Assembly: GCA_916610825.1 (NCBI GenBank)
Contig: OU744447.1
Coordinates: forward strand, 6,517,402 to 6,581,401
DNA from: Haliclystus octoradiatus
Lineage: Eukaryota; Cnidaria; Staurozoa; Stauromedusae; Haliclystidae
Length of the DNA stretch: 64,000 bases
Direction: 5' to 3'
The position numbers and the translations under genes are program-made. This document shows, piece by piece, positions 2,390 to 61,498 of this stretch (positions are counted from its first letter, which is position 1; each line of letters opens with the position of its first letter). A model generated the notes under the pieces. That model did no database searches and was not told where the DNA came from. It saw only the letters and a list, made by a program, of their open reading frames with translations.

Positions 2390-3960
2390 TTAATGATGTA
2401 TGAATGCATAATTCTGTGATCCATAACTTGGATATTTCTGGATGAACATAATGATAGAAAATTCATAGGCTCTGTAGGGCTAGACGTTTCACCAGGATGG
2501 ACAGGACACAGGTACTTTATTGCCTTGAAGTGGTCAGTAGGGTTGATGTCACAACTTAGGGATTGTGTTGCCAAGTCCAACCTTAATAATATTTGAAGAA
2601 GTTCTTTGGTATATATTGTAGGTCTTTCTCGTTCAGAATACACGTTGGAAATTGGATGTTGAAACACTCAACATCGCGTATTCCCGTCCTTGTCAATCAA
2701 TTTTTACACTTTTCCTTTGCAATGATTATATCCCAGTAAATATTATCTAGTGCCAAAGTATTCTTGTCTGGAGTAAAAATCATACCAGCTAAATAAGTTG
2801 TACTGCATCGTGGCCGCTCTGTCTCTAAACCTGCCTTGAAAAATTATAGTTTACTAATGGAGATTCTTGACTCTGTTGTACTTGTTACTATTATAGTGGT
2901 ATTATTACAATATTTTCGTTTGAACATTTATCTCATCCGAGATTCAGAACTTGTTGATAACAGAAAATTACAAACACAGAACAGAGACAAAAAGAAAAGA
3001 TTGAATGGATCATTTTGGTACATTTATTACTGTTAGAATTACTCAAGTAATATATCTTCCTTTTGAGGCTGCGGGGGCAGTGGATCCACTCCAAAGAAAG
3101 GCAAGGGTTGTGGTGATGGTGATGGCGGAGGCAATCCCTGTCTAGGGGGGGTAAGGAGATTGGACATTGCTTCATCTCCCTTTTTACCTTGACGAAGTTT
3201 GTTCTTTGACTAAGAAAAAAAAAATATATATCTATATATGGAAGTTGGTTGATTGGCTTCAGTAACAGAGGATACATTGGTGTGGTTGCCGGTGCATGGG
3301 CTCTGCAAATGGATACCTTAAAAAGAAAGAAAATTGAAAAGCATTCTTTAAATAAATTTGTGCACTTGTTTTGAATAACAGTAGTCTGGCAAAATTTGTC
3401 TAGACTTGTTTTGAAAGGCAGTAATCTGTTGAAAATAATTAAGGTGTTTGTTTTAATTTGAATTTCATGAGTTTGGTTGAAAATGCTATGTATGGTTACC
3501 TGTCCTGGGATGTGTTGTCTTCATTGTGGTAGATGCAATCTTTTGGAAATAGCAGTCAACTGGCCATTGTCATCATGCGCAGATGCTGAAGATTGTGTAT
3601 TATACTTTTTAATGAAATATCTTATGTCTTTTGGCAGTGTATAGACATTTACAAAATCAACAATCGATTGCATGAAATCGAGATCTAGGATATACTAAAG
3701 ATCTCCAGTCAAACAGATTTCTCTTTGAAGTGATTGATGCTGGGATTCAGTAAATTTCCTGTGCAAAATAATGAATGTTACTAAAAGATGTATAAATAAA
3801 GTAAATTAGATGTTGTGATAATGTTGTTAGTACAGTTACGTAAATGTTTCACTGCTTACCTGTGAGTTTGAATCTTTTTGTGGTATAATGTTCTTAGCTG
3901 AGCATTGATTTGGGACTAGCCTTTACGTATAGAGATGGTTACGGAACGCATATTCTGTCG
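2390..3960 (-). pseudogene. Unrecognised spliced repeat-borne gene(s), copy A
   Basis: Reading the minus strand from 3960 down, coding-like exons with GT-AG borders appear. They are about 3960-3862 (frame of MRSVTIS..RK; stop inside), 3757-3502 (KFTESQHQSLQREICL, then LDLDFMQSIVDF, with internal stops), 3305-3043 (Gly/Lys-rich SKNKLRQGKKGDEAM then a Pro-rich tail ending DILLE-stop), and 2832-2390 (AGLETERPRC, MIFTPDKNTLALDNIYW, a 1-nt deletion near 2698, then FQHPISNVYSERER and LCPVHPGETS). An AATAAA lies just after the DILLE stop, so two adjacent genes are possible. Copy B (9352-10250 plus 4829-5536) is the same set. I do not recognise the protein; its repetition and link to BEL-like fragments suggest a transposon or a duplicated host locus. 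Confidence 0.45.
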
Positions 3961-4850: not shown

Positions 4851-5536
4851 ACACCGCTGCAATGTTTAATGACGTATGAATGCATAATTCTGTGATCTAT
4901 AACTTGGATATTTCTGGATGAACATAATGATAGAAAATTCAAAGGCTCTGTAGGGCTAGACGTTTCACCAGGATGGAAAGGACACAGGTACTTTATTGTC
5001 TTGAAGTGGTCAGTAGGGTTGATGTCACAACTTAGGGATTGTGTTGCCAAGTCCAACCTTAATAATATTTGAAGAAGTTCTTTGGTGTATATTGTAGGTC
5101 TTTCTCGTTCAGAATACACGTTGGAAATTGGATGTTGAAACACTCAACATTGTGTATTCCCGTCCTTGTCAATCAATTTTACATCTTTTCCTTTGCAATG
5201 ATTATATCCCAGTAAATATTATCTAGTGCCAAAGTATTCTTGTCTGGAGTAAAAATCATACCAGCTAAATATGTTGTACTGCATCGTGGCCGCTCTGTCT
5301 CTAAACCTGCCTTGAAAGATTATAGTTTACTGATGGAGATTCTTGACTCTGTTGTACTTGTTACTATTATAGTGGTATTATTACAATATTTTCGTTTGAA
5401 CATTTATCTCATCCGAGATTCAGAACTTGTTGATAACAGAAAATTACAAACACAGAACAGAGGCAAAAAGAAAAGATTGAATGGATCATTTTGGTACATT
5501 TATTACTGTTAGAATTACTCAAGTAATATATCTTCC
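4851..5536 (-). pseudogene. Unrecognised repeat-borne gene, copy B 3' half
   Basis: Parallel to 2387-3060 of copy A, with the same FQHPISNVYSERER exon and upstream AGLETERPRC exon. It is intact in order but ends abruptly at 5536, where copy A continues (3060/3061). Its 5' half resumes at 9352 after the viral/LINE insertion. This defines the insertion site to within a base or two. Confidence 0.55.
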
Positions 5537-6192
5537 ATAAGAACTCTCCTCAAGTTAAGCAAGCTGTTATAGGAAGTGGAGAATTGGCATCTTATTTTGT
5601 CGACCAGAGTCACGTGCCTAAGATGATGACTAGAAACTTCCTTCATATTAAAACGTTTCATATTGGTGACAGAGTTTACGAGAGGCTAGATTCTATGAGT
5701 CCGTCATGTGGAGATTTTAGAATCTATGTTGGCGGAAAAGTTGAGAAAGATCGTCGTACCAAAGTCATTAGAGACAAGGTGCTGAATCCTTCTACGAAGC
5801 AACTTCCAGCAAGCCAAACAAATTTCGCTGATGTATTTGAAGAGATCAACGTATCAGATGACGGAACTACGTACAGGATGCCATGGGTTAACAAAAAGAT
5901 TAACCCACCGATGTTGATTTCGTCACAAAGTCCGATTTCCTCTAATGGAATCCAACAGACTCTTACTCAATTTCATTTTGAGATAATTTATTCTGTCACG
6001 TTTATTATGAAAGACATATCGCCATTAGGAGATAGAGCATTTAATGATCCAATTGGCCTATTTGAGAAAAATCATTGTGGTTTCACACATAGCAGAGACA
6101 GTGGTCAAGGATCTCAACACACATCAAGACCATACGTTCAAGATTCTACGGTTTTACATCCGTATTATTTCATAGATATGGTATCATCATAA
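5537..6192 (+). pseudogene. Viral structural protein (VP-like), C-terminal part
   Basis: The frame is open from the host junction at about 5539 to the stop at 6190-6192 (about 217 residues). There is no in-frame ATG near the junction, so this is the 3' end of a gene cut off by the integration breakpoint. It has no recognisable enzyme motif. It is rich in Ser, Asn and aromatic residues with beta-type composition and ends in YYFIDMVSS. Its stop lies 4 bp from the stop of the opposing NS1 gene, as expected for the convergent 3' ends of ambisense parvo-like genomes. The VP assignment rests on position and on the matching 5' piece at 8249, not on sequence similarity that I can confirm. Confidence 0.55.
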
Positions 6193-6196
6193 ATTA

Positions 6197-7654
6197 CTAT
6201 TCTAACAATGAGGTTAAATAATCATTATCTACAACTGTATCGTTGTTAAATATTTTATTACCATATGTATCATTAGCAGTATTTACCATATAGCACCATA
6301 TTTTTTGTAGCGATTTTTTATCATTAAAGTCAATTAATGTAGTTAAATGGTTGATTGATGTGGTCGTTGATATCTTCTTGTTCATTTCTAACCATAAACA
6401 TCGCGCCTTCACTGCTGCTGTATGAGTTGACACGTATGCAGTTGGCGATTGATTACATGATACTAGTACAGGTTTCCTTGTTACACGTGATTTGTTTTTA
6501 AATTTCACATCACTAACACAACTTGGTGAACCCTCGCACAACAATTTGAAGTGTTCCACTGTAATTTCGTTCAACATTAACTCTTCTCCAATATATAACC
6601 CTTTCCCAGGGAGATCATCAAACCAAAACGTACCAGCTTTATCGGACGTGCTCTTAAAGAACCCGGTCTCGTGATGTTCATAAAAACGTGATAGTAACTT
6701 TATAATAGCTGACTTGCCACTGTCAGGACATCCTTCAAACAAAACACAGTTGATCTTTGAATGATCTTCCTTAAGGATCTTATGAATTTTCCAGCATAAT
6801 AACTTCCAATCACTGATGTCATTAGCCTCTGCTATATATTTCATTAATTCGATATACACAGTGATAGTTGCTTTGATTGACTCACTTTCATTTAATACGT
6901 CTTTGTCTTGTATTGACTTGCTTGATAATAAAAATCTCTCGTAATACGTTACATTCGATGTTCGACTTCTGATAATGTCGAGTGCCAATCGCTTATATTT
7001 ATCCCAGCACGCTGCGTAACGCGTCATCAGGTTTGTAATATCTTTTTCTTCCGTTTTATGTAATAAGGTGACTTCGTCAACGATTTCGTGTTGTATGAAT
7101 GCATCTAATATCTGCTTACATGGACCGTCTTTCTTCTGTTTCGGCTCTTCACTAAATTGACAATCGTCAAATCTTGCCAGTTTCATATCTGGTTCATCTT
7201 CAACTTGGTTATCACCATCGACAATGTCTCTGATATATCTTTTACCGATTTTTAATGCTGACTTGCAGATACATTTGAGCAATGGAAATGCGCATTCCTT
7301 GCAGAATGTATGTACCAATGTGTCCAGAATACCATCTTGCTCATCAGATGTGTTCAGATCGTCCTCATCGTCTGAGATTAATATAACTTCTGGTGTGATA
7401 CATTGTTCTTCGTAATCAGGATCAGGTCGATTGATTGTCGCAACTCTGTCCCATACTTCTTCTGCGGACATATCTGATGACATTCTGGAGGTAAGTGGTA
7501 GTGCTAACAACGTGGCATCTGAAATATTGTCTGCAAACAGAACATCGTTGAGTATAGAGTTTGCATTGGTACTCTCTTCCACAACTACGACAGTCTCGTG
7601 CGCAATACCGCTTGTAGTTGCGACACATCGAGGGTCTGATCCTGCGCATGCCAT
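6197..7654 (-). CDS. NS1-like superfamily 3 helicase of endogenous virus
   Basis: A 485-residue uninterrupted frame. It contains Walker A GCPDSGKS (about residues 309-316), Walker B-type GLYIGEELM (about 350) and motif C PVLVSCN (about 396), in SF3 order. SF3 proteins form hexameric helicases that unwind small DNA virus genomes in the nucleus; NS1 of parvo-, denso- and bidnaviruses is the closest architectural match. The N-terminal third is acidic with a Cys cluster (FCKECAFPLLKCIC, about residues 117-130). No HUH nickase domain is obvious in this frame; a possible HxH motif lies in the overlapping upstream frame. The ATG has a purine at -3 and G at +4. An intact frame in an otherwise decayed region suggests a young insertion or retained use. 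Confidence 0.8.
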   Translation of the reverse strand: MACAGSDPRCVATTSGIAHETVVVVEESTNANSILNDVLFADNISDATLLALPLTSRMSSDMSAEEVWDRVATINRPDPDYEEQCITPEVILISDDEDDLNTSDEQDGILDTLVHTFCKECAFPLLKCICKSALKIGKRYIRDIVDGDNQVEDEPDMKLARFDDCQFSEEPKQKKDGPCKQILDAFIQHEIVDEVTLLHKTEEKDITNLMTRYAACWDKYKRLALDIIRSRTSNVTYYERFLLSSKSIQDKDVLNESESIKATITVYIELMKYIAEANDISDWKLLCWKIHKILKEDHSKINCVLFEGCPDSGKSAIIKLLSRFYEHHETGFFKSTSDKAGTFWFDDLPGKGLYIGEELMLNEITVEHFKLLCEGSPSCVSDVKFKNKSRVTRKPVLVSCNQSPTAYVSTHTAAVKARCLWLEMNKKISTTTSINHLTTLIDFNDKKSLQKIWCYMVNTANDTYGNKIFNNDTVVDNDYLTSLLE

Positions 7655-7847
7655 TTCTTAAATCTCCAGCAACTTTTACAACGAAGTGATAATGATCCAA
7701 ATGATCAGCGAATTCTTCTACAGAAACGAATTGTAAAGCTCCGTTATTCCACGTGAATAATAATCGGAGCAGTTGAATTGTTGAATGGTTCTGCAGAAAA
7801 CTTTCCGTCTTTGATGTCTTGCTAGTTATGATGTGAAGCACAAACAT
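7422..7847 (-). CDS. Upstream overlapping viral frame with possible HxH motif
   Basis: This 141-residue frame starts 193 bp upstream of the NS1 ATG and overlaps its 5' end in another register. The non-overlapping first 65 residues look protein-like and include DHYHFVVKV, which could be the His-hydrophobe-His of a HUH nickase. The overlapping Arg/Cys-rich part is probably a shadow of NS1. It could be an upstream exon or a frameshifted N-terminus of NS1, or a separate NS ORF as densoviruses have. The ATG context is weak. I cannot decide between these. Confidence 0.35.
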   Translation of the reverse strand: MFVLHIITSKTSKTESFLQNHSTIQLLRLLFTWNNGALQFVSVEEFADHLDHYHFVVKVAGDLRNGMRRIRPSMCRNYKRYCARDCRSCGREYQCKLYTQRCSVCRQYFRCHVVSTTTYLQNVIRYVRRRSMGQSCDNQST

Positions 7848-7885
7848 GACTGACGAGATTTCATTGCACGTCTCCTAATATGCTA

Positions 7886-8035
7886 CATTTTGATTGACAG
7901 ATAAGTCACGTGGGGACGCTGTCAAACCTGTTTTTAACAAAAGACGCGGTCAGATTGGCATTTTGATTGACATATAAGTCACGTGGGGACGCTGTCAAAC
8001 CTGTTTTACACTAACAAAAGACGCGGTCAGACTGG
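7886..8035. repeat. Two tandem 73/77-bp direct repeats upstream of viral genes
   Basis: Units 7886-7958 and 7959-8035 are adjacent and nearly identical, differing mainly by a 4-base gain. Each carries TCACGTGG (E-box-like) and GACGCGGTCAG. They lie between the 5' ends of NS1 and VP, next to the hairpin. This is the position expected for promoter or replication-protein binding repeats, but function is inferred from position only. Confidence 0.75.
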
Positions 8036-8055
8036 TATTTACCTGTTCAGTGACC

Positions 8056-8233
8056 TTCACTCTATTGTTGGATACTTATAACTGAGATGTAACTATCTGG
8101 GAAACAAAAAATCTACGGAAATGACCCGAGGGGATTAGGGTTAAGGGGGTGAAAGGTCAAAAGGTCGGTTAGGGTTAAACAAGGTTTCCCAGATAGTTAC
8201 ATCTCAGTTATAAGTATCTAACAATAGAGTGAA
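8056..8233. repeat. Viral terminal-type hairpin, 50-bp arms
   Basis: Left arm 8056-8105 and right arm 8184-8233 pair at 49 of 50 positions around a 78-bp loop. The loop is G-rich on the plus strand and contains TTAGGGTTA twice (8135 and 8169), like the animal telomere repeat. Parvoviral ends are hairpins; here one hairpin sits between the NS1 and VP 5' ends, so it would be a fused terminal repeat or the origin of a circular genome. Confidence 0.85.
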
Positions 8234-8248
8234 TGTATCATTTCGACG

Positions 8249-8702
8249 ATGGCTTTGAGACAGATCGGACGCGATACTGCCGTTGGTGCTGGCAGTGTGT
8301 TAGCAAGAAGATATCACGATAGTGAAGCAGCTTCTATTGCTGGTGGAGCTGCTGGTGGACAACTATATGACTATGGAGAGCAAGCTGCCGGTGCAGTCTA
8401 TAATTCAGTTACTGGTATGTACACACCTGGTTATACGCCTAAACGGCCACGCATGGAGGGTCCTTCTAATATCATGCCACAAGAGGATGCAGCTGGCGCT
8501 ATGGATTCTGTCGACGGAAGCTCTGTTATGGGATTAGGCGGAGGTGGAGCCGCTGCAGGAGCGAATAATTTAAACGGGAATATGTCGTTATATACCGGAC
8601 ATTCTATGAAGAACGCACGGAGTCATACTCAATTGTTTAAATATGAAGGTGTGATGAACGTTCCTACTCATAAAACATCAGAAGATACACAATATACAGC
8701 AG
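8249..8702 (+). pseudogene. Viral structural protein (VP-like), N-terminal part
   Basis: An ATG with A at -3 and G at +4, 15 bp after the hairpin, opens a frame of about 150 residues. Features: Ala/Gly-rich start, a basic nuclear-localisation-like PKRPRM (residues 64-69), and a Gly-rich run GLGGGGAAAGAN (about 95-106), as many densovirus/parvovirus capsid N-termini have. The viral part ends near 8700, where a LINE fragment continues in frame by chance, giving a 303-residue chimeric frame to 9160. The matching C-terminal piece is at 5537-6192. I cannot tell whether internal VP sequence is missing. Confidence 0.6.
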
Positions 8703-9351
8703 AGATGATCTTCAACACCATAGTCTTGCCACATTTCGACTACTGCGCTGTCGTATGGGGGAATTGTAAAAAACAACACATCGATCGCCTCCAGAGACTA
8801 CAAAACAGAGGAATGAGGGTCATTCTCCGCTGTAATTATCGAACTCATGTCTCAGACATGCTCAACCAACTTGGTTGGCTACCAGTCAGAGACAGACTAA
8901 CTACACAACAGCTAATATTCACACATAAACTAAAATTCAATTTAGCTCCTCCCTTGCTCTCCAATTTGTTTCAAAAACCACACTCCATTAGAACACGTGC
9001 ACATTCCCACAATGACATCTACATTGAGTCAAGCCATAGACACTCATTCAAGTATGCTGGTGCTCATAAGTGGAATGACCTTCCGTCTGAGATGAAGATT
9101 GTTGCTAGTGGAACCAGTTTTAAGCATCTTCTCAAGAAGCAATTGCATAGCAAATCGTGACAAATTTTCTTTTTTTAGCCATAGACTTTATTGTAAATAT
9201 TATCTATATACCAACTACAAACCTTACCTTTTATACTTATCGTGTACACATGTACACATATATATTATATTTGTTTCAATCAGTCCTGTGAAAAAAAGCT
9301 CCTGTAGCTTATCAGGTTCTGAATAAATGATGATGATGATGATGATGATGA
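8703..9351 (+). mobile_element. 5'-truncated L2/CR1-like LINE 3' end
   Basis: It encodes the C-terminal end of a LINE reverse-transcriptase protein: VLPHFDYCAVVWGNCKKQH, LQRLQNRGMRVIL, LGWLPVRDRL, HKWNDLPSEMK, then a stop at 9158-9160. The 3' untranslated part ends with GAATAAATGATGATG and a (GAT)n run directly against host repeat at 9352, typical of L2-clade 3' ends. The same family appears at 15389, 21870 and 62155. The 5' truncation point coincides with the viral border. Confidence 0.85.
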
Positions 9352-10255
9352 TTTGAGGCTGCGGGGGCAGTGGATCCACTCCAAAGAAAGGCAAGGGTTG
9401 TGTTGATGGTGATGGCGGAGGCAACCCCTGTCTAGGGGGGCAAGGAGATTGGACATTGCTTCATCTCCCTTTTTACCTTGACGAAGTTTGTTCTTTGACT
9501 AAAAAAAAAAATATATATCTATATATGGAAGTTGGTTGATTGGCTTCAGTAACAGAGGATACATTGGTGTGGTTGCCTGTGCATGAGCTCTGCAAATGGA
9601 TACCTTAAAAAGAAAGAAAATTGAAAAGCATTCTTGAAAAAAATTTGTGCACTTGTTTTGAATAACAGTAGTCTGGCAAAATTTTTCTAGACTTGTTTTG
9701 AAAGGCAGTAATCTGTTGAAAATAATTAAGGTGTTTGTTTTAATTTGAATTTCATGAGTTTAGTTGAAAATGCTATGTATGGTTACCTGTCCTGGGATGT
9801 GTTGTCTTCATTGTGGTAGATGCAATCTTTTGAAAATAGCAGTCAACCGGCCATTGTCATCATGCGCAGATGCTGAAGGTCGTGTATTATACTTTTTAAT
9901 GAATTATCTTCTGTCTTTTGGCAGTGTATTGACATTTACAATATCAACAGTCGATTCCATAAAATCTAGATCTAGAATATACCAAAGAACTTCAGTCAAA
10001 CAAATTTCTCTTTGAAGTGATTGATGCTGGGTTTCAGTAAATTTCCTGTGCAAAATAATGAATGTTACTAAAAGATGTATAAATAAAGTAAATTAGATGT
10101 TGTGATAATGTTGTTAGTACAGTTACGTAAATGTTTCACTGCTTACCTGTGAGTTTGAATCTTTTTGTGGTATAATGTTCTTGGCTGAGCATTGATTTGG
10201 GACTAGCCTTTACGTATAGAGATGGTTACGGAACGCATATTCTGTCACTCCCCTC
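9352..10255 (-). pseudogene. Unrecognised repeat-borne gene, copy B 5' half
   Basis: Continuation of the copy interrupted by the virus, parallel to 3061-3960 of copy A. On the minus strand it holds the MRSVTIS exon, the KFTETQHQSLQREICL exon (9790-10045, with a stop in place of the Tyr of DIRYFI), and the SKNKLRQGKKGDEAM/Pro-rich exon. Donor and acceptor sites are conserved between the copies although both carry stop codons. Confidence 0.45.
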
Positions 10256-35873: not shown

Positions 35874-36547
35874 TCCCAAATCTTTTATATCGACTCTGAG
35901 CCTACGGCTTCGGCAGATAACTCCGACCTCGGTCTGAATAATTCTCAATATTAGGCGCAGCCTCATTCAATAAATATTGCTAAAAGTCCTGATGCAATTG
36001 AAATGTTTGAAAGTTAACTATATCATAACATACGCATTATACAAGTGCTTTATGCGATACCTGTAATACAAAATGCAAAATAATTCCATAAATTATTATT
36101 ATATAGCTATAAAAGTAAATAAATCGAGTGGGAAACTTGTACATGTTAAACGATTGAATTGTGTAACAAAATTTGAAAACAAAACTTTGTTTGTCAAGTC
36201 CAAAAGTGCGAAGCTTGGCTTGTAGCCCGAGGGCGCAAACAGCAATACGGAACTCATTATATTACAGTAATTGAATATTGTACATAGCAATTTGTAACTC
36301 TTAGAATCAAAAGGGGTGTTAAAATGTTGTTTAGTTCTATGTAGACAAGAAACAATGTAAAAGATATTTTTCAAGAAACTTGTTTGCCTTTGTAAAGATG
36401 GACCCTTTAATATATTGAACGTGCTTCCATATGACTAATTCGAATGAGGTCCTCGACAACAATCGATATTTACTCATATAAATCTGTATGACAGTAAAAA
36501 TAAAGATTAGAAATGCTTAGCAGATAAATTAAATTGTAATTACTAAC

Positions 36548-36913
36548 CGGCATGAAAATAATGGTGTCTTCTCTTTCATCTGCCAATAGTAATCCGTAAA
36601 AACCATTTACCGTGTAGAGTTTACAATTAGCATTCCCATCACTTTGCTTATCATAAGTAATTGCTTCACAAAACAAAGTTTGATTACATTTATGTCGACA
36701 TGAAAAAATTGATTTAACTTTGATGACATCCAAATAATCAATTGAACTGCTGATTGATTTATTAGCAAAATATCTTCCCAAATATCTGTCTTGCTCGACG
36801 GTTAAATTTTTGCAAACACTTCCTAGAGTGATATTTGCATAAAATAGCCACAATATGAAACAAATAGTAAAAGTCCTGAGAAATCCATGTTCAGAAAATA
36901 TTGTTATCCACAT
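36548..36913 (-). CDS. PAN-domain gene A, first coding exon
   Basis: ATG at 36913; 122 codons to a donor CATGCCG/GTTAGT (phase 0). A signal peptide of about 30 residues (hydrophobic FTICFILWLFYANITLG) precedes a PAN/apple domain. Cys pattern: VCKNL, FSCRHKCNQTLFCEAITYDK and NCKLY, matching the disulfide core of that fold, which binds proteins or carbohydrates outside the cell. N-glycosylation sequons are present (NLT, NKS, NQT). Paralogous, in inverted orientation, to 60003-60368 at about 85-90% identity including upstream DNA. The phase does not match the last exon (20681-21083), so at least one middle exon is unseen. Confidence 0.75.
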
Positions 36914-50178: not shown

Positions 50179-50700
50179 TTACTGTCCGTAGCGGTTAACC
50201 GGTTTAGTCAGCCGCGTACTTCTACGTAATGTTGCTTTGGTTTCTTTGTTCGTGTCAGTTGACGGTGGCTCATCAAGGTCGGTTGATGTTCTTGGTTGAT
50301 CGGCATTGGTTTGTTTAATTCGTCTTAAAAATCGGCGATTACGCAAGTACAAGCGACCAGACGGTCGTTTGACGTGATAGTCTCGATTCTGTCCGATGTC
50401 AATAACGATTCCCTTTTCCATCCATCTCTTGGTTCGAGGGTCTTGTATTAGGACCGTGTCTCCGATGTTTAACCGTGGCAACATCTGGGCGGTGCGATCA
50501 TAATAAAACTTTTGTAATACTTTCATATCTTCAACTTTGTTGTCTGCATCCTCGGCGGCTTCTTGCCAGATTTTGGCAAATACTGAATAATGTGCAGGGA
50601 CTTTGGAACGGAGTTGGTGGCCATATAAAATTTGAGATGGGGATCTGCCATCAGCTCTGGGCGTGTTTCGTAGCTCTAACAGGCCATGTAAAAAAATCAA
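50179..50700 (-). pseudogene. Ty3/gypsy integrase C-terminal part
   Basis: 173 open residues. LLELRNTPRADGRSPSQILY and YYDRTAQMLPRLNIGDTVLI are the end of the integrase core and the post-core domain of Ty3/gypsy pol proteins. GRLYLRNRRFLRR and a tail with RRSTRLTKPVNR follow. It ends 150 bp before its polypurine tract. The 5' side is truncated at about 50700, so catalytic residues are absent. Confidence 0.85.
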
Positions 50701-55974: not shown

Positions 55975-56379
55975 TTGAATGTAAATGTTAACGGTGATGC
56001 AATTGTTTGGTGTGATACAAGTGATATTGCAATTGGGGTATGTTTAGAAATTGATGATGTAATGGTGAAAGATGCCTCATGGTTACGAAATGATTCGGCA
56101 TATATAAATATGGCTGAGCTAGAGGCAGTTGTTAAGGGTATAAATTTGGCTATATTATGGAAAGTAACAAAATTTACTGTTGTAACTGACTCAAAGATTG
56201 TGTATGGGTGGATGAATGACATCTTATCGAAGAAAAATAGAATTAGAACAAGGGCATTCGTAGAGCTATTAATTCGTAGAAGATTGGAGGTGATTGAAAC
56301 ATTAGTAGTAGAGTATGAGCTATTGCTGATTATGAAGCTGGTCGTATCTGAATTGAATAAAGCAGATTCTGTAACTTGA
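55975..56379 (+). pseudogene. Ty3/gypsy RNase H
   Basis: 134 open residues with IVWCDTSDIAIGVCLEIDD (first Asp), INMAELEAVVKGINLAI (Glu) and TVVTDSKIVYGWMND (Asp), the three-acid RNase H pattern, then NKADSVT at the end. Confidence 0.75.
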
Positions 56380-60002: not shown

Positions 60003-60368
60003 ATGTGGATGTTAATATTTTCTGAACGTGGAGTTCTCATGACTATTGCTATCTGTTCCACATTGTGGCTATTTTATGGTAATATCGCTTCAGCAGTTGT
60101 TTGCAAAAATTTAACCGTCGAGCAAGACAGATATTTGGGAAGATATTTCACTAACACATCAATCAGCAGTTCAATTGATTATTTGGATGCCATCAAAGTT
60201 AAATCAATTTTTTCATGTCGACAAAAATGTAATCAAACTTTGTTTTGTGAAGCAATTACTTATGATAAGCAAAATGATGGAAATGCTAATTGCAAACTCT
60301 ACGCGATAAATGGTTTGTACGGATTGCTATTGGTAGATGAAAGAAAAGACACCATTTTTATCATGCCG
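60003..60368 (+). CDS. PAN-domain gene C, first coding exon
   Basis: ATG at 60003; 122 codons to donor CATGCCG/GTTAGT, the same length and phase as gene A. Signal peptide (MTIAICSTLWLFYGNIASA) then a PAN/apple domain: VCKNL, FSCRQKCNQTLFCEAITYDK, NCKLY. Differences from gene A are mostly conservative, with indel-free coding sequence. It is probably secreted. Its terminal exon starts at 63952 and leaves the window. Confidence 0.75.
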
Positions 60369-61498
60369 GTTAGTAATTACATTTTAATTTCTGTACTAAA
60401 CATTACTATATCTTTGTTGTTTTCATTTTATTTAATATATGTTGTCAATGATCTCTTTTGATTAAATCATATGGTCATATGTAAGTAGGTAAAATTAATT
60501 TCTGGTTTTTCTATTTTCCTCTATCGTCATCTACTTTTAGGTCCAATATTGCTTCCTTGTCTACATAACAATAACCTAGCTCCACAAGGCCCGCTATTCC
60601 GCTTCTCTACATCTGGGCCTTGTAGAATTTCAGCAAATAAAATGACGCGCTAGCAACGCTGTGTCATTTATATTATAAACAGGATACAAAATGCCATTTA
60701 AAACACGCTTGTGTGATTTATATGTTATGCTGTAATAACACATCCCAAAAACAGCTATACCTTCTAAGTCTCAATTTTTCGTTTTAACACTTTCAAGCAA
60801 ACACTTATCACATCATCAGGATTATCGTGTTGCTACGTTGCTACGTGTCGCAAATTAAGTCCTTTTGTGTGCATCACCCCCTCCCTCAATCATAATTTTA
60901 ATTTGCGCCTATGACTCTATTTTTATTATCGAATGAAACAAATTCATAGAGGTTTGAAAAAATTCAAAGATCTGCTCTACGCCAACTTTACCTAAACAAA
61001 ATAATACATATAGAAAACATTAAGCAGCCAACTATAATCATGAAAACTCGACGAATCGCTCGTTACCTGGAAATTGTATATGGCTGTCTGCATAAAAATG
61101 ATATCAAATTAATTACTCGAATTTTTCTAATCAAGTGAAGGAAAATACGATTTAGCAGCATATGAATGAATTTATTATTTCTGTAAAACAAAAACGACTG
61201 TGAATTACTTACAGAAGATGTCATTATATACCAATTAGTTATATTGAAGAAATTTGGTAAGTCCTCAGATTTAAGTCTAGATTTATAGCGCACTAGCTAT
61301 GTCATAACCACGCTGCTAGACTAATTTATCATGAATTAATACTACTTTTGACACATTTGACAGGAATTGAGTTTGGAAAACATATGAATCGCTGACCCAA
61401 AACATGTAGCCGGTTTTTCCTCATAAAACGATTCAAGTATCCTTCAAAAGAATTTATCTAAGATTTTTTTTAAATATCAAGGAATGAGCATGCATCTA
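60369..61498. other. Gene C intron, first part
   Basis: Contains a short inverted repeat around CAAGGCCC/GGGCCTTG (60587-60622) and a segment near 60785-60845 related to 21365-21425 on the other strand. Confidence 0.5.

Follow-up and report, generated by a model that had tools for sequence, protein, structure and literature searches.

The DNA analysed here, hereafter the window, is a stretch of 64,000 nucleotides from the staurozoan Haliclystus octoradiatus (assembly GCA_916610825.1, contig OU744447.1, positions 6,517,402 to 6,581,401), and it carries at 5537-9351 an insert of largely viral origin. This insert is probably the germline relic of a small parvovirus-like virus with a linear, ambisense genome, whose ends were joined via one palindrome, whose joined DNA was opened in the VP gene and which was then ligated into a break opened by a long interspersed nuclear element (LINE), an account to which we give a probability of about 0.78. 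A single locus would thus record a linear parvovirus-like genome that was end-joined before or during its entry into the germ line. Most of the interest of the case lies in the LINE partner and in a possible split of the viral replication initiator into two proteins.

The insertion is single and clean, and it sits inside one copy of a host repeat. The left host flank (5201-5536, plus strand) is 98.8% identical to 2725-3060 and the right flank, where the same repeat resumes (9352-9901, plus strand), is 97.1% identical to 3062-3614, both within an uninterrupted unit of the repeat at 2725-3614. Aside from 1 bp that is missing, the flanks continue each other without a gap. From left to right the insert comprises a VP C-terminal piece (VP-C, plus strand), the NS1 gene (minus strand), tandem repeats, a hairpin, a VP N-terminal piece (VP-N, plus strand) and the 3' end of a LINE, the viral part being 3151 nt long, just under one unit of an estimated ~3.5 kb. 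A preliminary description of the window had reported that NS1 and VP-C converge 4 bp apart (frames 6197-7654 and 5539-6192) and that one hairpin (8053-8236) stands between the NS1 5' end and VP-N, and this arrangement was confirmed. The two host repeat units (2725-3614 and 5201-9901) are 97-99% similar and only the second holds the insert, which provides a relative date.

The NS1 gene (6197-7654, minus strand) encodes a superfamily 3 (SF3) helicase of 485 aa without internal stop. The protein matches the Pfam family Parvo_NS1 above its cut-off (7e-9) and PPV_E1_C as a second match (2e-6), and PDB chains named Non-structural protein 1 align to it over the SF3 helicase (9kbj, 1e-4; 9kbg, 4e-4), with the Walker A motif at residue 308. 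When 1000 stretches of 3150 bp were drawn at random from the window to the right of the insert, none had an ATG frame reaching 485 codons (longest frame per stretch: median 81, 95% 219, maximum 345).

Relatives were sought in the assembly that holds the window (262 Mb in 33 contigs, the window lying on contig C2) by queries with NS1, VP-C, VP-N, which ended in nine LINE residues, and a small open reading frame (ORF) overlapping NS1. The NS1 query gave 10 matches, seven of them at 60-100% identity on C1 (two), C2 (the window), C4, C10 and C11 (two), and three weak ones at 32-40%; VP-C gave six matches and VP-N three. Six of the seven NS1 copies, partial ones included, match Parvo_NS1 at E<=1. 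The convergent order of NS1 and VP is found in the window and on C1, C4, C10 and C11. NS1 is free of stops in all four full-length copies (window, C1, C4 and C10), and one partial copy on C11 has two stops.

VP-C (5537-6192, plus strand) runs as an open frame from the edge of the insert up to its stop codon and is matched over nearly its whole length at 71-82% on C1, on C10 and in one C11 copy, and partially at 63% in the other C11 copy and at 70% on C4. The glycine-rich VP-N (8249-8687, plus strand) is 83% identical to C1 and 67% to C10 over residues 1-146. Because VP-N and VP-C follow each other in order on one strand in C1 and C10, before NS1 on the opposite strand, the two pieces belong to one gene. 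This gene order rules out an origin of the pieces from unrelated genes, one of two findings that the preliminary description had named as fatal to its own account. In matched residues, ~405 nt separate VP-N from VP-C in C1 and C10. Compared with the C1 copy, the window VP lacks ~360 nt between its pieces, and the ~120 residues missing from it are present in both C1 and C10, where VP has one in-frame stop and one frame break, respectively. Searches of Pfam, PDB sequences, PHROGs and NCBIfam with the VP pieces returned nothing meaningful, the short weak matches in PHROGs and NCBIfam (at best E 0.018 over 26 residues, for VP-C) being judged due to chance. As for a phospholipase, Pfam gave no match and the HDxxY motif is absent from all seven VP pieces.

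The ordinary linear order is found on C10, in a copy of ~3.77 kb between its edges. Its left end consists of a hairpin with a 78-bp stem (z -21) standing before VP, and its right end, after the NS1 start, of an inverted copy of the left end over 189 nt at 98.4%. Outside these ends lie a long GATA array at the left and a three-unit GATA stretch at the right, beyond which 225 nt of the NS1 5' region appear a second time, at 99.6% (locus L023, 6682-6906). Furthermore, the copies share an NS1-side end: similarity stops at the same base, within one or two, in C1 (twice) and C4, and a few bases earlier in C11 and C10. Since C10 shows the linear order between terminal repeats and the NS1-side end is common, the virus is linear and parvovirus-like, with free ends, and not natively circular.

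In the window, a single palindrome (8053-8236) joins the NS1 end to the VP end, with NS1-side sequence on one flank and VP-side sequence on the other. Its arms (8053-8105 and 8184-8236) are 53 nt each, 96% complementary and 78 nt apart. The DNA fold reaches -51.0 kcal/mol, against -16.6 +/- 3.2 for shuffled sequences, none of 200 being as stable. One arm is 80% identical to the C10 terminal repeat over 46 columns, and 17 nt of the centre match the end on the NS1 side in C1 and C4. A host miniature inverted-repeat transposable element or other mobile repeat was considered and rejected, because the hairpin occurs once in the genome and related ends match viral loci only: all eight genomic matches of the C10 terminal repeat are in the viral loci of C10 and C1, and all four matches of the C1 NS1-side end are in viral loci. 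Two tandem repeats of ~75 bp (7886-8040) lie between the NS start and the hairpin, and similar sequence is present in C1, C4, C10 and C11. The window order (VP-C, NS1, hairpin, VP-N) therefore calls for a template in which the NS1 and VP ends were joined. Thus, the circular or concatemeric template proposed in the preliminary description stands for the integrating molecule only, which would have been circular or head-to-tail, and not for the virus.

The right part of the insert belongs to another element. Indeed, the plus-strand ORF at 8249-9160 is a chimera made of VP up to 8687 and of LINE sequence from 8688. Among 40 scored of 1135 candidate matches to a query spanning 8660-9351, 36 besides the window's own start exactly at 8688 and are 98-100% identical, and other LINE copies continue further upstream and finish in an (ATG)n tail. 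The segment 8688-9351 (plus strand), with its intact (ATG)n 3' tail and its 5' truncation, both expected of LINE retrotransposition, thus comes from a young LINE, of which it is the 3' end. A joint arrival of virus and LINE is the simplest reading, given that the LINE tail is directly followed by host repeat, one base short, and the LINE insertion very probably supplied the chromosomal break for the virus. A survey of 2016 described parvovirus-related sequences beside transposable elements in arthropod and flatworm genomes and suggested that the neighbouring elements may have aided parvovirus integration (PMC5013282), and the copying of RNA-virus mRNAs by LINEs has also been described (PMC2987831). 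No description of a LINE/parvovirus co-insertion was found in the literature searched. A second virus/LINE neighbourhood is seen on C11 (locus L024, 3660-7240), where a LINE 3' tail lies near the right edge.

The following course of events is proposed. In an infected germ-line cell, linear viral DNA, both of whose ends were palindromic hairpins, would have been joined end to end, as a circle or a head-to-tail dimer, in such a way that the starts of NS1 and VP were left with one palindrome between them. The joined molecule would have broken inside VP, losing ~360 nt, while a LINE copying its 3' end into the host site, and opening a chromosomal break there, would have stopped early. During the repair of this chromosomal break, in what would be a single event, the free LINE 5' end would have been ligated to VP-N at 8687/8688, and VP-C to the host at 5536/5537. 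The earlier statement that the sequence opens inside VP is thus retained as a break in VP, but the opening is not seamless, with the ~360 nt missing and a LINE on one edge.

Several observations weigh against this account. No target-site duplication is found at the insert edges when the flanks are compared with the uninterrupted repeat, 1 bp being missing instead. The loss of ~360 nt of VP is unexpected for a circle cut once, and a circle and a head-to-tail dimer leave an identical junction by which they are indistinguishable. The palindrome-bearing join is seen at one locus only, and this palindrome is shorter than that of C10, the outermost stretch on the NS1 side being absent from it, which would make the join an imprecise one. 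As to the linear relative, the right end of C10 keeps one palindrome arm only, followed by the 225-nt viral fragment, so that the outer boundary is less well defined there than at the left. Finally, the capsid label given to VP, which has no recognised homologue, rests on position and on the glycine-rich stretch, so that VP is a presumed capsid protein.

Four other origins were weighed. Head-to-tail genomes or a concatemer could already have stood in the chromosome, a deletion then leaving one palindrome and two partial VPs with no free circle involved. This tandem integration is rather unlikely, although the genome offers some precedent for it. Indeed, two differing viral copies stand head to tail at the C11 locus, where sequence from the NS1 side is fused to VP at two joins, both in the same head-to-tail direction and without hairpin, its copies differing by ~13-22%, while C1 carries two NS1 copies in the same direction differing by ~23-28%. 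Copies thus differ by ~13-28% in the parts compared. Head-to-tail densovirus concatemers have also been described in tapeworm genomes (PMC6880638). Against a tandem stand the size of the insert, just under one unit, and the contiguous host site with its loss of 1 bp.

The second alternative, that the virus came first and that a LINE later jumped into the resident VP, with loss of the remaining VP sequence as far as the host edge, has a low probability. The many near-identical copies of this LINE do indicate that the family moved recently. However, the lost segment would need to have ended at the precise boundary between virus and host, as the host repeat resumes 1 bp short, and the head-to-tail palindrome would be left unexplained.

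A transposon carrying captured NS1 and VP genes, rather than a virus, is very improbable. The presence of several copies on five contigs and the stop-free state of NS1 in every full-length copy would agree with it, but the other NS1 copies reach no more than 60-74% identity with the window protein, copies are cut at different places, two of them stand in tandem, and both the terminal repeats and the gene pair are parvoviral.

The divergence between copies was expressed as the proportions of nonsynonymous (pN) and synonymous (pS) differences. Over 20 pairs of NS1 copies, pN is 0.10-0.31 and pS 0.68-0.87, with the exception of the close pair formed by C10 and the second C11 copy (pN 0.01, pS 0.28) and of the short overlap between both C11 copies (pN 0.07). 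For the small ORF outside its overlap with NS1, pN is 0.07-0.27 and pS 0.54-0.90 (15 pairs). Because the substitutions between copies are mostly synonymous, the copies most likely diverged as functional replicating viruses and inserted separately. Among the window, C1 and C10, pS is lower in VP-N (0.40-0.51, three pairs) than in VP-C (0.63-0.76, the same three), which is perhaps the mark of a packaging or regulatory signal.

Least probable of the four alternative origins, at a few chances in a hundred, is a natively circular polyoma- or circovirus-like virus with the hairpin as its origin, a reading that draws on the window order alone and on the second Pfam match, PPV_E1_C, and that is countered by the C10 copy, linear between inverted terminal repeats (although one arm only is kept at the right), which is largely the finding that the preliminary description had said would refute its account, and by the NS1-side end being the outer end at nearly the same base in C1 (twice) and C4.

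Besides NS1, the end-joined virus would have carried a small overlapping NS gene of 141 aa (7422-7847, minus strand), which overlaps the NS1 start in a different frame and is kept in all six aligned copies. The preliminary description did not mention it. In these six, E44, E45, H52, Y53, H54 and Y126 are invariant, as are cysteines 86, 89, 102 and 105, which form two CxxC pairs. The HYH motif, of the H-x-H type that marks HUH nickases, occurs only in this separate ORF (6/6), while H-x-H is absent from NS1 in all five frames scanned of the seven copies, the remaining two copies being partial. The spacing from Glu to His is 8 residues from E44 or 7 from E45, and that from His to Tyr is 74. Comparable parvoviral spacings are 8 and 82 for PPV1 and CPV, 9 and 60 for PPV5 (PMC13308288), and 51 residues from HVH to Tyr in a whitefly densovirus (PMC12297876). 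Two of the six small-ORF members match the HUH family Y1_Tnp below the cut-off (E 0.02 and 0.05, residues 43-131), as one of four weak families, and a profile of the small ORF matched no chain among PDB sequences. The genome search with the small ORF gave eight matches, namely the six aligned copies, a C10 fragment and a remote one.

These features suggest that the small HYH protein is a candidate nickase and that nickase and helicase may be separate genes in this lineage. In the virus, NS1 would act on the terminal palindromes by unwinding their DNA, and the small protein by nicking it. It is tentatively proposed, with somewhat less than an even chance, that the initiator is split between an HUH nickase of 141 aa, which probably binds zinc, and an SF3 helicase of 485 aa, encoded by separate overlapping genes, instead of one fused NS1, and that end-joined DNA of this lineage can be captured by LINEs. 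Such a split initiator could be an early-branching or a secondarily split form of the parvoviral initiator. Two observations speak against it. The remote relative, on C7 (locus L060, 4522-4722), is 38% identical and decayed, with one stop and the first His replaced by Asn, and the CxxC pairs would fit a plain zinc protein as well. Around this relative, no NS1 or VP match was found within the 9 kb fetched. A splice fusing the small ORF to NS1 was also considered. In the region of both frames, 9 GT and 2 AG columns are conserved in 6/6 copies over 819 columns, with neither a conserved intron nor a conserved AG downstream of the Tyr126 codon, and a fusion through a splice shared by the copies was rejected, whereas one at differing positions may exist. 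No separate parvoviral nickase gene was found described in the open-access literature searched. If the small HYH protein is the nickase, it breaks the rule by which nickase and helicase reside in one NS1 protein and makes the assembly of the parvoviral initiator directly testable.

The family is parvovirus-like and would work in the manner of an ambisense densovirus, and it is not filed in the Densovirinae. With the Parvoviridae, it shares an SF3 NS1 and a linear genome with terminal hairpins, the latter seen on C10 and known from integrated copies alone, but no HUH nickase motif was seen in the five NS1 frames scanned. As in ambisense densoviruses, NS and VP converge on opposite strands (window, C1, C4, C10 and C11), inverted terminal repeats are present, NS1 belongs to SF3 and the NS frames overlap. 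Unlike them, it shows no phospholipase motif in the VP pieces, no H-x-H in NS1 and no detected VP similarity. A phospholipase A2 domain in VP is common, although not universal, in ambisense Densovirinae. The C10 copy, with its ends shortened, measures ~3.77 kb, compared with 3.9-6.3 kb for densoviruses (PMC12297876, PMC11357303). Papillomavirus E1 and polyomavirus large T are SF3 helicases too, and PPV_E1_C is indeed the second Pfam match of NS1, but Parvo_NS1 is the better match, and the terminal repeats and the linear order also set the family apart from these viruses.

For head-to-tail germline copies and an NS1 without N-terminal domain, the nearest published parallel found is that of the EmuDNV relics of tapeworms. 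These are likewise germline copies with terminal repeats and head-to-tail arrays, and their NS1 combines Parvo_NS1 and PPV_E1_C with no recognised N-terminal domain (PMC6880638). They differ by an NS1 of 431 aa and a VP of 321 aa, and the relevant sections of that study report no separate nickase frame; in them VP follows NS1 and its 3' end comes close to the terminal repeat, an order that reads as one-sense (PMC6880638). In the main text of a 2026 study of flatworm NS1 relics, the terms HUH, ITRs and 'inverted terminal' do not occur (PMC13055364). As to the joining of ends, parvoviral concatemers are usually head-to-head or tail-to-tail, and bocavirus and adeno-associated virus are known to form head-to-tail circles whose ends are shortened (PMC3125170). 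The window copy resembles these circles in its head-to-tail junction between the ends of a linear parvovirus, at which terminal sequence has been lost. The circles are episomes, whereas the window has a germline integrant opened in VP beside a LINE.

That the insert represents an undescribed small-virus lineage, as first suggested, is plausible. Pattern scans of IMG/VR, which reach mainly close relatives, found no relative, and neither did searches of a large protein set with NS1, the NS1 alignment and VP-C. Two IMG/VR loci, L001 and L002, were discarded as relatives, since their ORFs are tailed-phage-like and the matches due to chance. The family would thus represent a further parvovirus-like lineage, ambisense and devoid of phospholipase, to which no relative was found in the collections searched.

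A second, short SF3-helicase family, 26-40% similar to NS1, is present in the same genome on C2 (locus L026, 4839-5426) and C4 (locus L027, 4016-4366). Over a stretch of 1248 bp its members on C2 and C4 are 99.3% identical, and it was therefore duplicated recently.

Scans of the window for tRNAs and Rfam families gave no match. Retroelement-like fragments were recognised by eye at 50179-50700 (minus strand) and 55975-56379 (plus strand), one resembling an integrase tail and one an RNase H. Two closely similar, cysteine-bearing proteins that look secreted, also noticed by eye, are encoded ~23 kb apart at 36470-36913 (minus strand) and 60003-60461 (plus strand).

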